NCBI RefSeq assembly: GCF_009858175.1
Contig: NZ_CP047393.1
Span: forward strand, 3,038,001 to 3,102,000
DNA: 64,000 nucleotides
Source: Pontibacillus sp. HMF3514
Lineage (GTDB): Bacteria; Bacillota; Bacilli; Bacillales; BH030062
Direction: 5' to 3'
The notes beneath the pieces are model-generated. The model was given only the letters and a program-made list of their open reading frames with translations, was not told the DNA's origin and did no database searches. Shown here piece by piece: positions 6,438 to 63,971 of this stretch. A program made the position numbers and the translations under genes. How positions within the stretch are numbered: position 1 is the first letter of the stretch; each line of letters starts with the position of its first letter.

Positions 6438-6444
6438 TGCTTTA

Positions 6445-7056
6445 TTCAGTTATATGGCAGTAATATGGAATAACTGTTTTAGTGAGATAGGCGGTTCCGT
6501 TGCTATTGTGGAGTGCGGTGGGCTTGGGAACGGGTTGCTTTCCCCGGACGAACGATCGAGCCTCCTCATCCGCTACGCTTCTTGCGGGGTCTCGCTCGCC
6601 CGTTTTTCCGGAGGAGTCAACCCGTTCCCAAGCCCACCTTAGCCGAATGGTGATTAACTGAACCGCAGAGAGAATGTGAGGAAATGCTTGCGGACATTTA
6701 TTCCGTTATTTGCATCAAATCACCTTGAAAAACCCCAATTTGTCACAAATAAGGTACCATATGTCCGTAACGACTCTCGAAATGCCTTAAAAGTTCAAAA
6801 TAACGGAATAAATGTCCGTAAGGTTTAGAACTCACACACTAGGGTCCGTTATTCTTCATAAACGCAAAGGGGGGAAGGAAACGGCAAACTCCAGTGGTAG
6901 AAAGGGCAGATGAGACCCCACAGAGAACGGAGTGAACGAGGAGGCTCAGCTGGTCTTCCACAGGAGTATTGCCGTTTCTCTGAACCCCTACCTCTCATAA
7001 AAGCAACGGACTGCTCTCAACTTATCTCGATTCCAAGTCTTCAAGATAAGGGGGCT
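6445..7056 (+). repeat. Long modular hairpin repeat, copy A
   Basis: This 612-base intergenic element recurs at 35344-35954, 47549-48155 (inverted), 63414-63950 (rearranged) and as a remnant at 40408-40527. From left to right it has a terminus starting TTCAGTTATATGGCAG, hairpin module 1 bounded by CGGTTC (6492) and GAACCG (6660) with perfect 21-base arms at 6517-6537 and 6618-6638, a linker with a perfect 19-base inverted repeat (6691-6709 and 6800-6818), hairpin module 2 with arms at 6877-6897 and 6958-6978, and a terminus ending GGGGGCT. It carries no transposase and I see no target-site duplication. Short open frames across module 1 are stem artefacts. The remaining 130 bases to the next gene hold only its leader. 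Confidence 0.9.
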
Positions 7057-7183
7057 ATAATGAAAAATGCCACTAAGTATCTTTCCTCCCTTAATCCTCA
7101 CAGAATATTCCCATTCCTATACATGTATCCCATTTATTCGAATACATTTGTATTATGAATGTCATCTTAGAGGAGGACGTACT

Positions 7184-18413: not shown

Positions 18414-18520
18414 TATAATTTCGTGAAATGTAGGGGGACCAGTGTTGCTGGTTGAGACTGTATGCATGAACATACTGACCCTTCGAACCTGAACTGGTTG
18501 AGACCAGCGTAGGAAACATA
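18414..18520 (+). promoter_or_regulatory. TPP riboswitch (with -10 TATAAT at 18414)
   Basis: The aptamer runs from about 18428 to 18518. Conserved pieces are the GGTTGAGA of the pyrimidine-sensing arm, ACCCTTCGAACCTGAACTGG and ACCAGCGTAGGAA. A perfect TATAAT (18414-18419) sits just upstream, though the -35 is weak. A terminator hairpin at 18545-18580 follows, so thiamine diphosphate should stop transcription of the transporter genes downstream. Confidence 0.95.
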
Positions 18521-18544
18521 TTCAATCCATAAATGTATTGATAT

Positions 18545-24374: not shown

Positions 24375-24615
24375 ATAATAAAAAAGCACGTATTCATCCC
24401 CAAGAAAGGGACGAGTACGTGCTAACCCGTGGTTCCACCCAATTTTTCATCAAAATATGATGACTCATGTAGCCTGTAACGTGGCTTAATCCGGTACAGG
24501 ATACTGGTTTTCCCCTGTACAGCTCAAAGGTGGTAAGTCTCTTTTCTGCGTTAGGAAGCTCTCAGCACCCTTCCATCTCTGGAAACCGTAAAAAGAAACT
24601 GTTGTCCTTATCAAA
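24375..24615 (-). ncRNA. T-box leader, gene-proximal copy (thrS)
   Basis: On the minus strand the leader ends with the T-box sequence TGGGTGGAACCACG (24441-24428) and a terminator (24422-24380) with six T. The specifier region reads CTTACCACCTTTGAGC, giving ACC, a threonine codon. Uncharged threonine tRNA should promote readthrough into thrS. It resembles the second leader upstream closely in its T-box and specifier parts. Confidence 0.93.
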
Positions 24616-24631
24616 GCTTACATATATCCAT

Positions 24632-24885
24632 TAAAAAACACGCAATCATCCCTAACTAAGGGACGAGTGCGTGTTATACCCGTGGTTCCACCCAATTTTT
24701 CATCCGTACTTGGATGACTCATTGAAGCCGTAACGTAGCCATACGATACTGGTTTTTCAATTCCCCAGTATAGCTCAAAGGTGGTAAATGACTCTCCTGC
24801 GTTGGGAAGTTCTCAGCAATTCTCCCCTCTCTGGAAACCGTTTAGAGTCATTCATGTCCTTTTCATTGCTTTCGTCTTTAAATAT
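24632..24885 (-). ncRNA. T-box leader, promoter-proximal copy (thrS)
   Basis: A second complete leader precedes the first: stem I with ATGACTCT / AGAGTCAT, specifier region TTTACCACCTTTGAGC (ACC), T-box TGGGTGGAACCACG (24694-24681) and a terminator with CACGCA / TGCGTG arms followed by six T (24675-24632). Two in series mean that transcription must pass two antitermination decisions. Confidence 0.93.
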
Positions 24886-31023: not shown

Positions 31024-31078
31024 TAAAAAAGACCATAGAGAACTAAAGGTGCAATATACACCTTTTAAAATCGCTCTA

Positions 31079-31238
31079 CATCTTCTCCCATCCAGACTGT
31101 AACTGTCGGTCCCGGAGTTTCACCAGGTCCACCGATCGGCATGGAGTTAAAACTCTCGTAGCGCCTCCCGGGTCACGGACTAAGAACACCAAGTGGGTTC
31201 ATCACCGTCGGTCGGGAATTTCACCCTGCCCCGAAGAT
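31079..31238 (-). ncRNA. FMN riboswitch (RFN element) upstream of ribU
   Basis: On the minus strand the conserved RFN pieces appear in order: ATCTTCGGGGCAGGGTG, GAAATTCCCGACCG, GCGGTGA-type segment read as GACGGTGATGAACCC, AGTCCGTGACCCG, GGTGGACCTGGTG and GACAGTTACAGTCTGGATG. FMN binding should favour the downstream terminator and shut off riboflavin uptake. A TATAAA at 31272-31267 could be its -10. The rest of 31240-31357 holds nothing else I can support. Confidence 0.95.
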
Positions 31239-31357
31239 GGAATCGTATTGAATTTACACTTTTTAGTTTATAGGATCCTGTCTATTTCAGCAACTAAATT
31301 AGCTTAATTCATACTATATAGGAATCGTATGAACCTATCATCATTTTCATATAGCAT

Positions 31358-35106: not shown

Positions 35107-35169
35107 TCTTAAACAATATTAATTAAGAAACTTGTCCCAATTACAATTGAGACCATCATGAAATCTTGC

Positions 35170-35244
35170 AATACCCATAGTCGGATCATTTACGGTAATC
35201 CGGTAGAAACTTGCGAGCCATATCCTCGCGATTATATGAGTACG
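35170..35244 (-). ncRNA. Guanine-class purine riboswitch (xpt-pbuX)
   Basis: On the minus strand the aptamer contains ACTCATATAATCGCG, GATATGGCTCGC, AGTTTCTACCGG, CCGTAAATG and CCGACTATGGGTA. The discriminating base in the closing GACTATGGG is C, as in guanine-sensing members rather than adenine-sensing ones (U). Guanine binding should allow the terminator at 35058-35106 to form. Confidence 0.96.
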
Positions 35245-35267
35245 TCCGCATCTTTTAATGTATCCCA

Positions 35268-35295: not shown

Positions 35296-35343
35296 GACCT
35301 TCATTTAAATTACGATATGTATAGATTCATGCTAATGGATTTG

Positions 35344-35954
35344 TTCAGGTAAATGGCATTTATGTGGAATAACTGTTTTAGTGAGAGAGGCGGTTCCGAT
35401 GCTATTGTGGAGTGCGGTGGGCTTGGGAACGGGTTGCTTTCCCCGGACGAACGATCGAGCCTCCTCATACGCTACGCTTCTTGCGGGGTCTCGCTCGCCC
35501 GTTTTTCCGGAGGAGTCAACCCGTTCCCAAGCCCACCTTAGCTGAATGGTGATTAACGGAACCGTAGCGATATTGAGACGAGGCTCTCGGACATTCATTC
35601 CGTTATTTACTTCAAATCACCTTGAAAAAGCCCATTTTGTCACAAATAAGGTACTATATGTCCGTGACGACTCTCGAAATGCCTTAAAAGATCAAAATAA
35701 AGGAACAGATGTCCGTAAGGTATAGAGCTCACACAACTAGGGTCCGTTATTCTCCTTAAACGCAAAGGGGGGAAGGATACGTCGAACTCCAGTGGTAGAA
35801 AGGGCGGCCGAGATCCCGCAAGGAACGCAGCGGATGAGGAAGCTCGGACGGTCTTCCACAGGAGTATCGATGTTTCACTGACCCCCTTACTCTCTTACAA
35901 GCAACGGACTGCTCTCAACTTATCTCGATTCCAAGTCTTCAACAATAGGGGGCT
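35344..35954 (+). repeat. Long modular hairpin repeat, copy B
   Basis: This 611-base copy has the same order and orientation as copy A and is its closest relative; the two align from the TTCAG terminus to the GGGGGCT terminus. Module 1 has perfect 21-base arms at 35416-35436 and 35517-35537, identical to copy A. Module 2 differs: its arm reads TACGTCGAACTCC where copy A reads AACGGCAAACTCC, and the facing arm has changed with it (GGAGTATCGATGT). The middle inverted repeat is less perfect than in A. It lies between the divergent xpt leader and the glyoxalase-like gene. The 170 bases after it hold no gene. Confidence 0.9.
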
Positions 35955-36128
35955 TAAGTCCATTTAACACCTCAATACTTACAATACAATTCAATAAAGT
36001 TCAGAAATAATATACTTAACATGCTCTACGATGTTTTGATAGGGCTATTTAGGGAATTCTAAAAATACCATACATAGCAACCAAGATACTTAATCAAAGT
36101 AGCAAATAATTACAGGAGGAGTTCAACA

Positions 36129-40261: not shown

Positions 40262-40407
40262 ATGTAAATCCCTCCAAAGAAAATCTTTCTGTAAACACTT
40301 TATCGAAACGGGTAACCCAAATCAAGTCCAAGCCAAAATGTAAACGAATACAGAAAGGATTTTTATATTTTTGTAATATTTTTTACGATAGGAAACATTA
40401 TTACAGA

Positions 40408-40527
40408 AAACTTGGATTCAAGATAAGGGGGGACAGTACAGAGGGCTACCCGGCGGAAAGATGTGCTCACCCTCTCTCTATTTGGCAACGGAACCACTCC
40501 ACACCTTATTACTGCCAGATTGCTGAA
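40408..40527 (-). repeat. Long modular hairpin repeat, internally deleted copy E
   Basis: The left end reads ACTTGGATTCAAGATAAGG, close to the left flank of copy C, and the right end reads CAACGGAACCACTCC then ACTGCCAGATTGCTGAA, close to the right end of copy C. Only about 40 unrelated bases remain between, so both hairpin modules and the linker are lost. Orientation is that of copy C (inverted relative to A and B). Confidence 0.75.
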
Positions 40528-40531
40528 TAAT

Positions 40532-47529: not shown

Positions 47530-47548
47530 GATCCCCTTCTTCCGTTAA

Positions 47549-48155
47549 AGCCCCCTTATCTGGAAGACTTGGAATCGAGATAAGTTGAGAGCAGTCCGTT
47601 GCTTTTATGAGAGGTAGGGGTTCAGTGAAACGGCAATACTCCTGCGGAAGACCAGCTGAGCCTCCTCGTTCACTACGTTCTCTGTGGGGTCTCATCTGCC
47701 CTTTCTACCGCGGGAGTTTGCCGTTTCCCTCACCCCCTTTACGTTTATGGAGGTTAACGGACCCTAGTGTGTGAGTTCTAAACCTTACGGACATCGGTTC
47801 CGTTATTTTGAACTTTTAAGGCATTTCGAGAGTCGTTACGGACATATGGTACCTTATTTGTGACAGATTGCTCTTTATTAAGGTGATTTGCAGCAATTAG
47901 CGGAATGAATGTCCGTAAGCATTACCTCCTCATATCGCTACGGTTCCGTTCATCACCATTCGGCTAAGGTGGGCTGGGAAACGGGCTGACTCCTCCGGAA
48001 TAACGGGCGAGCGAGACCCCGCAAGGAGCGTAGCGGATGAGGAGGCTCGATCGTTCGTCCGGGGAAAGCAGCCCGTTTCCCAGCCCGCCGATCTCCACAA
48101 AAGCAACGGAACCACTCCTCACCAGCTTATTCAAGATAACTGCCATATTACTGAA
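47549..48155 (-). repeat. Long modular hairpin repeat, copy C (inverted)
   Basis: This 607-base copy is in opposite orientation to copies A and B and lies between the convergent kapB and khtU genes. The module 1 arms are GGGCTGGGAAACGGGCTG (within 47968-47988) and its partner at 48069-48089; they differ from copy A at several places, yet 20 of 21 positions still pair and the exception is a G-T. Module 2 arms carry GCGG/CCGC where copy A has GTGG/CCAC. Termini are AGCCCCCTTATC on the left and ACTGCCATATTACTGAA on the right. Confidence 0.9.
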
Positions 48156-48160
48156 CAAAA

Positions 48161-63386: not shown

Positions 63387-63413
63387 ATATCAGGCTTTTA
63401 TTTATTCCACTAT

Positions 63414-63950
63414 AGCCCTCTAATGTGGAAGAATTGGAATCGAGATAATGTGCGTATGGTTCCGTTGCTTTTGTGCAGATCGGTGGGCTGTGGAACGGGT
63501 TGCTTTCCCCGGAAGACCGATCGAGCTTCCTCGTCACTTCGTTCCTGCGGGATCTCGCTCGCCCTTTCTACCGGAGGAGTCAACCCGTTCCACAGCCCAC
63601 CTTTGCCGAATGGTGACTAACGGAACCGCCGTAGTTCAGGGAGAGGATGTTCTGATTCCAGGTAGTATAAGCCTATCATGACAAGGGTCTGAGCAACTTC
63701 TCAGAATATGATTTCCAATCAATATGAGGTGGGAAAGCTGAATTATGGTCCGTTAGTCTCCTTAATCGCGTGGAGGGAAGGAAACGGCAAACTGTCGTGG
63801 TAACAAAGGCAAGACGAGACCCCGCAGGAACGAGGAGGCTCGGCTTGTCTTCCACAACAGGCTTGCCGTTTTACTGACCGGAACAAATTACTCAACAGCA
63901 ACGGACTCCTCTCAGTTTCAAGTCTTCAATAATCCTGCCATATTGTTGAA
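63414..63950 (+). repeat. Long modular hairpin repeat, copy D (rearranged)
   Basis: The two hairpin modules are in the order and orientation of copies A and B, but the outermost sequences are those of the opposite ends: an AGCCC-type terminus with GGAATCGAGATAA on the left and CTGCCATATTGTTGAA (the TTCAG-type end) on the right. Module 1 arms carry GGGCTGTGGAACGGGTTG and its exact complement AACCCGTTCCACAGCCC, a third version of the stem. The linker between modules is unrelated to that of A, B and C. The copy lies after the yutI terminator; 63951-63971 holds nothing recognisable. Confidence 0.85.
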
Positions 63951-63971
63951 AAAAGTATGTTTATCTAACTA

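Follow-up and report, generated by a model that had tools for sequence, protein, structure and literature searches.

The long intergenic elements of Pontibacillus sp. HMF3514 are probably noncoding cassettes, of the ORF-less kind, that belong to an integron-like system in the Bacillaceae. They were examined in a window of 64,000 nucleotides (the whole stretch of DNA analysed, G000:C1:3038001-3102000, in which G000 is the elements' own genome, a single contig of 3,976,892 bp), for which a preliminary description had reported four copies and one remnant of a two-hairpin repeat and had proposed a non-autonomous mobile element, a structural RNA or a chromosome-organising signal. Of these three guesses the mobile element is the best supported. 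The elements do not appear to be remnants of an insertion sequence, because no target duplication was found in 58 elements tested, no gene-bearing partner with these ends occurred among 91 complete elements and the same ends recur at gene cassettes.

Copies, ends and interiors of the family

All five reported copies were recovered, with limits slightly wider than first given. Copy A is complete from L end to R end (6442..7068, plus strand; pairwise comparison and end scans) and contains, in order, the L end (6442..6473, plus strand; L-end model, E = 3e-4), hairpin module 1 with a core GAGCCTCCTC...GGGGTCTC that is common to other genera (6493..6666, plus strand; alignment), hairpin module 2 (6838..7010, plus strand; pairwise comparison, limits approximate) and the R end including a 28-bp palindromic core (7022..7068, minus strand; E = 1.5e-16 with a model built from own-genome R ends including that of copy E). 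Copy B (35341..35966, plus strand; comparison and end scan) is complete with a poorly conserved outer R terminus, and copy C (47537..48158, minus strand) is complete and inverted, with a copy at the same site and in the same orientation in P. marinus. In copy E (63402..63953, minus strand), which sits in both end models, the R end is on the left and a long L end (GGCAGGATTATTGAAGACTTGAAACTGAGA) on the right, and the modules are inverted relative to the ends. The remnant D (about 40406..40530, minus strand; E = 0.0055) consists of an R core fragment and an L end with little between them.

Copies A and B were 93%, 88% and 85% identical in three successive blocks, and copies A and C (inverted) showed 89% identity across 389 bp and 94% across 200 bp. 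When copy A was compared with the complete genome, as the preliminary description had proposed, at least 40 long matches of 77-100% identity were obtained (itself included; best 40 of 162 candidates), so the family is not a product of chance. A 24-nt L-end pattern with at most three mismatches was found at 62 places and its reversed control at none; in the own genome the R-end pattern occurred at 102 places and a shorter L-end pattern at 92. From 203 ends detected in the scanned stretches with lax thresholds (at most 10 mismatches in 32 for L and 16 in 47 for R), 91 complete elements were obtained by pairing and 21 ends were left unpaired. Every pair joined one L and one R end (48 LR, 43 RL, 0 LL, 0 RR). 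The elements measured 220-798 bp each and 55,642 bp together. The number 91 is a lower bound, in which copies A, B and C are counted, copy E is left out since its L end was missed by the scan, and at least four further elements are not included. The density of one copy per 13 kb that had been estimated from the window holds there locally and not genome-wide, where 91 elements in 3.98 Mb correspond to one per 44 kb.

The reported lack of coding capacity was borne out, the longest complete ORF per element having a median of 72 aa compared with 65 aa in shuffled sequences; one outlier contained an ORF of 202 aa, the shuffled maximum being 122 aa. The placement between genes agrees with the finding of an ORF on both sides of 91/91 elements according to simple ORF calls. 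According to the preliminary description a match to a named Rfam or repeat family would refute its reading, and none of the elements in the window had an Rfam match at gathering score; when copy A was searched up to E = 5, seven Rfam matches were returned, all far under their gathering scores and none credible. No match to copy A was found in a plasmid collection searched in distant mode.

The outermost sequences of the elements are TTATTC.../...GAATAA, with the L end reading TTATTCAGTTATATGGCAGTTATCTGGAATAA and the R end, read inwards, TTATTCCATTAAAGCCCCCTTATCTGGAAGACTTGGAATCGAGATAA. By inspection of alignments, the core of the R end is a 28-bp palindrome of 11-6-11 form, TTATCTTGAAG ACTTGG ATTCGAGATAA. 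The core is preceded by a short spacer that is of GCCCCC type in R and of GGCAG type in L, and the outer half-site is TTATTC; several R-end positions vary without compensation. In the own genome the L and R ends form partial terminal inverted repeats, which are clearer in the copies read from the genomes G001 and G007, where both ends are R-like.

Between these ends the interiors vary. Most consist of two GC-rich hairpin modules, some have the modules in another order and some carry an extra hairpin in a loop. In five of the 91 elements (e681175, e869690, e886866, e2578090 and e2708927) the usual ends enclose a minisatellite whose repeat unit, GACGGAATCGCTCGGGTAGGC, is about 21 bp long. A different unit of the 21-bp type forms an interior array, also with the usual ends, at another own-genome locus (L404). 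A short hairpin unit of another Pontibacillus genome (G004) is bounded by an R end of GCCCTC type and an L end of GGCAG type. In the double-module architecture as first described, the two-hairpin interior is only one cargo of several, so that it is the L and R ends, not the hairpins, that define the family.

The hairpin itself is more widely distributed. Its GC-rich core had been said to recall hairpins of bacillus genomes, and a similar hairpin without these ends is present in other genera of the order. Copy A, module included, matched 20/41 genomes and 14/34 genera, and the matches read outside the genus covered the module. Across the order, a similar GC-rich hairpin of the form TCGCTTTCC-GCGGG...GAGCCTCCTC...GCGGGGTCTC...CCCGCAGGAGTC was seen in at least 12 genera (L107, L108, L111 and other loci), and at several loci it is bounded by GTTGATT/AATCAAC.

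Gene arrays with the same ends and a candidate recombinase

Sites of the same kind punctuate arrays of genes in G175, a genome of another family of the order, of which 165 kb was read. It contained 63 cores and no reversed core. All R-type cores were located on one strand (44/44) and all L-type cores on the other (8/8), with 11 unclassified (6 and 5 on the two strands), and R-type cores formed two dense clusters of 32 and 10, the median spacing being 777 bp overall. Exactly one ORF of at least 60 aa was present in 24 of the 40 intervals shorter than 2.5 kb (two ORFs in 11, none in two, more in three), and the longest ORF was opposite in strand to the core in 32/38 intervals. The array products are mostly small and hypothetical-looking, the few that were scanned including an acetyltransferase; arrays in the genomes G059 and G080 include a nucleotidyltransferase-like protein and a nuclease.

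Several array genes were present in two or three copies with differing neighbours. Within the two clusters, with three intron pairs set aside, 29/36 endpoints of nine duplicate pairs were located at most 40 bp from a core, against 7.5% in the null (binomial p = 1e-26 if endpoints are taken as independent, which they are not fully). An unrestricted count of 24 repeat pairs in all 165 kb gave 29/96 endpoints, many of these pairs being hairpin elements outside the clusters. The introns are three identical group II introns with reverse transcriptase inside the array (L374, L375 and L394; G175:C1:1495000-1546000), and in two of them the identical stretch begins no more than about 16 bp from an R core. 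They recall the attC-targeting group II introns of integrons.

The likeness of the array sites to the ends of the Pontibacillus elements was assessed with an R-end model built from 12 own-genome elements only (R3), which makes the test non-circular. Across the 165 kb it matched 42 sites at E values of 0.1 or lower, the best being 4e-10, and 38 of these sites came from the four array loci. Homology of the L end is weaker than that of the R end, the L-end model from own-genome elements (R2) giving 10 matches (best E = 5.7e-5). By blastn, the own-genome elements matched eight array sites of G175 with 82-94% identity over 33-47 bp (for example at 1502778 and 1622887, with 85% identity across 46-47 bp) and also matched dispersed hairpin elements of G175 that have the same ends; one of the G175 elements (1557100-1557860) has GAAGACTCAGTTTCGAGATA at one end and its inverse with one difference at the other. 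The short hairpin unit of Pontibacillus G004, with R and L ends of these same types, forms a bridge inside its genus. Hairpin and gene cargoes thus appear, from these alignments, to have common ends, both within one genome and across families.

The ends are found beyond these genomes. An exact degenerate R-core pattern, searched in one genome per species of 84,980 species (a set from which the window's own genome is possibly absent), matched 108 stretches, of which 100 were in P. marinus and P. yanchengensis and the other eight in Bacillus sp. CHD6a, Pseudalkalibacillus, two Halobacillus, Oceanobacillus, Alkalihalobacillus, Thalassobacillus and B. horikoshii. A small ORF, judged by eye, follows directly after the site in at least four of those eight. 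A 47-nt R-end model (R1), which was built partly from gene-associated sites, had matches in 32/199 genomes and 14/97 genera of the order. In P. yanchengensis (L189, 743-1607) a gene of the zeta-toxin family, preceded by a small ORF, adjoins a GGGCC-type R site, and at four own-genome loci (L403, L405, L406 and L408) GGGCC- or GCGCC-type R sites adjoin genes that by eye are ArsR-like regulators and a kinase-like gene. It is possible that these types of R site are a gene-bearing subtype.

A candidate enzyme is encoded among R sites. The own genome has a 280-aa Xer-like recombinase at 337109-337948, with a homologue in G175; it contains a Phage_integrase domain, and its alignment with XerD spans the catalytic region. 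At this locus (L438) cores at 427, 886 and 1327 precede the recombinase gene, ORFs of 68 and 92 aa are located in the intervals, and downstream a weak core (six mismatches) follows ORFs that by eye are acetyltransferase-like and phosphatase-like. The protein scored 220.4 against NF040815, "site-specific tyrosine recombinase/integron integrase", with a cut-off of 220, and the G175 homologue 218, just under it. For TIGR02249, the IntI-type integrase, 0/10 site-bearing genomes were over the cut-off and the candidate reached 103 bits compared with 265.

Recombinases of at least 70% identity, partial or broken copies included, were found in 17/199 genomes, nine of which have R1 sites compared with 2.7 expected (Fisher's exact test, p = 2e-4). 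In a looser set of 43 genomes (E = 1e-60) 11 had R1 sites compared with 6.9 expected (p = 0.05). Among 11 loci with at least 70% identity, cores with at most five mismatches adjoin the recombinase in five (own genome, G001, G104, G176 and G175), and the other six had no such core in the flanks examined; at 19 more distant recombinase loci the only matches had 5-6 mismatches, which is at the level of noise. G004 and G007, which have sites, gave no recombinase match at E = 1e-60, and the array region of G175 gave no tyrosine recombinase at E = 1e-5, the homologue in that genome being located elsewhere (669136). The case for a link between recombinase and sites, as judged from co-occurrence and adjacency, is good but not proved, and in some lineages the enzyme may have been lost or a different one may be used. 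At about 321000-357000 of the own genome (G000:C1) several genes for tyrosine recombinases are grouped in the region of cassette sites, which resembles an integration hot spot. Another recombinase adjoins the own-genome element ending at 1763458; it looks like XerC and follows what we take to be a topoisomerase gene, and it was dropped as a candidate.

Based on these comparisons we propose that the unit would be the stretch bounded by one L end and one R end, and that where units stand in tandem, the R end of each and the L end of the unit that follows would together make up a large palindrome, imperfect and similar to attC, that encloses a terminator hairpin. The Xer-like recombinase probably acts at the core. 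By excision and integration it would carry units from array to array and, less often, to secondary sites that follow terminators, where insertion would leave no target duplication. In Pontibacillus, units carrying a pair of the hairpins common in the order would have grown very numerous and become dispersed, and the hairpins may bring a benefit.

An alternative that we regard as rather unlikely is that the elements are a family of short MITEs whose terminal inverted repeats are imperfect and which were mobilised in trans by a DDE transposase from another locus, possibly lost by now. The high copy number and the small coding capacity are typical of this reading, and the partial inverted repetition of L and R, with two R-like ends in the copies read from G001 and G007, agrees with it. 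Against it, no target-site duplication was detected across the first 58 pairs (best z 2.4 among many offsets), and with pairing allowed up to 2 kb there was no autonomous or longer gene-bearing pair with matching ends among the 91 (longest 798 bp). Also against it, these ends punctuate one-strand gene arrays that have their breakpoints at the core.

Genomic placement and conservation in P. marinus

The elements are located preferentially downstream of genes. Using simple ORF calls, the neighbouring genes of the 91 elements were convergent in 35 cases, tandem in 53 and divergent in three, and the facing stop codon was at a median of 65 bp from the element. A terminator-like hairpin was present on 74/123 gene-3' sides compared with 4/59 gene-5' sides. 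Divergent neighbours were less frequent than at element-free gaps of at least 80 bp in the window (3/91 vs 9/37, p = 7e-4). Other regulatory structures observed in the window are two tandem T-box leaders upstream of a single gene (24404-24875) and FMN (31076-31242), purine (35158-35259) and TPP (18422-18532) riboswitches.

To compare orthologous sites, as had been suggested, P. marinus was searched for the coding sequences that flank 25 elements; nine loci were unscorable with the flanks on different contigs and 16 could be scored. An element in the same orientation, as called by hand from the strands, was present at eight of these, a partial one at two (681175 and 3698737), and no recognisable pair at six (2759094, 1635958, 1824223, 3023063, 269959 and 1611812, the last with a gene there instead). 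There was no clean empty site among them, the apparently empty ones differing beyond the element ends too, and the mechanics of insertion could not be read from the junctions. Many R ends of the P. marinus genome were seen close to contig ends, at distances of a few hundred bp or less, so that the draft assembly seems to be interrupted at the repeats and this species probably has more copies than were counted.

The eight orthologous copies were 65-86% alike (three over less than 300 aligned bases), compared with 87-98% for the best own-genome copy of similar length. The outer termini resembled the orthologue more closely than they did the average copy of the same genome at 7/8 loci (mean difference 0.08), whereas the interiors were nearer to the median same-genome copy than to the orthologue, also at 7/8 loci. 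Position is thus conserved while interiors are homogenised, which at these eight loci is most simply explained by old insertions whose interiors were made alike within the genome, presumably by gene conversion. Under the cassette proposal, homologous recombination would later have homogenised the interiors in place and sometimes inverted them.

These data also bear on the possibility that the element is a fixed functional intergenic structure, whether a structural RNA or, where genes converge, a terminator or insulator, which is selected and homogenised by gene conversion and whose mobility lies in the past or never existed. The strong 3'-flank bias, the deficit of divergent neighbours and the retention of site and orientation at half of the scorable P. 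marinus loci all speak in its favour, as does the pairing of the hairpin module. In an alignment of 25 module sequences (four of the window and 21 taken at loci in 16 other genomes; five sequences were removed before the count), 94.7% of the paired cells were kept and 11/21 pairs had changes on both sides, compared with 29-63% paired and 3-7 such pairs in slid controls, the sequences having been chosen by the core pattern, so that conservation of the core is partly due to selection of the sample. Further pair types were no better than in the slid control (23 vs 11-24) and the RNAalifold covariation term was unfavourable (+1.8). We nevertheless consider a fixed structure unlikely, given that the cargo is exchangeable (hairpins, minisatellite, short hairpin) with the ends constant and that no recognisable pair of ends was present at 6/16 of the orthologous sites that could be scored; avoidance of promoters also fits purifying selection against insertions. 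A single-strand element (HUH, IS200/IS605-like or REP-type) with hairpin ends cut by a Y1 transposase would account for the palindromes near both ends and for the missing target duplication but is hardly credible, since by eye the listed flanks show no apparent insertion consensus or fixed 5' target motif, the ends are symmetric enough for inverted-repeat pairing and the array breakpoints point to site-to-site recombination.

Relation to known systems and significance

The reading as noncoding cassettes places the elements closest to integrons, which are extremely rare in Firmicutes according to the relevant passage of one study (PMC9024848) and in which ORF-less cassettes are known according to a passage of another (PMC6557892). 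Like integrons and CALIN, G175 has one-strand tandem arrays of small, mostly unrelated genes with one palindromic site per unit, duplicated units that break at the site, and group II introns within the array, and in some genomes a tyrosine recombinase is located among the sites. Unlike them, the integrase is not IntI in any of the 10 genomes compared with the TIGR02249 cut-off, the sequence of the site differs, and about 100 copies per genome are dispersed here, each with both ends. An integron-like array is present in G175 and not among the hairpin copies of the own genome, which are not arrayed. As the comparison with the IntI-type model was negative even though the system seems to work in an integron-like manner, it was not classified as an integron.

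In pdif/Xer modules a 28-bp core of 11-6-11 form is acted on by a Xer recombinase, and a core of the same length and form (by inspection) is found here together with a Xer-like recombinase; the difference is that TTAT is at the outer edges of the core here and next to the centre in dif. REP/REPIN/BIME repeats are palindromic, 3'-flanking and homogenised within a genome, all of which applies to the present elements. They are palindromes of 20-40 bp, however, and the elements described here are many times longer and have distinct, defined L and R ends. Among MITEs, Bcr1 of the B. cereus group is similarly short, intergenic and of high copy number with little or no coding capacity, in part as given in a published account (PMC2267715); the present family, set apart from it by description only, differs in having no target duplication, a variable interior and ends that are common to gene arrays. 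The same account describes Bhal-1 of B. halodurans as a 74-bp repeated intergenic stem-loop. By comparison of descriptions only, this is another repeated intergenic stem-loop of a bacillus and may be the same as the hairpin module; at 74 bp it is much the shorter, and the passage that describes it gives no composite element with ends.

In the open-licence literature no description of such a cassette system was found among the matches listed, and no paper that by its title deals with such a system; the core sequences searched as text had no match there and the module sequences only unrelated ones. A broader proposal, for which we see the case as evenly balanced, is that the Bacillaceae have a cassette system of their own that is independent of IntI, with a Xer-like recombinase, composite attC-like L/R sites, chromosomal arrays of dozens of small genes, and many dispersed noncoding hairpin cassettes (in Pontibacillus, with about 100 in this genome, and in at least one other family) that are homogenised in place. 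If this is true, the storing and shuffling of genes by cassettes would have evolved, or would persist, outside IntI integrons. The system would serve as a chromosomal model for which an enzyme candidate and a defined core of 28 bp are at hand, and the Pontibacillus elements would be a natural case of noncoding cassettes that have spread across a genome, beside terminators and with no target duplication.
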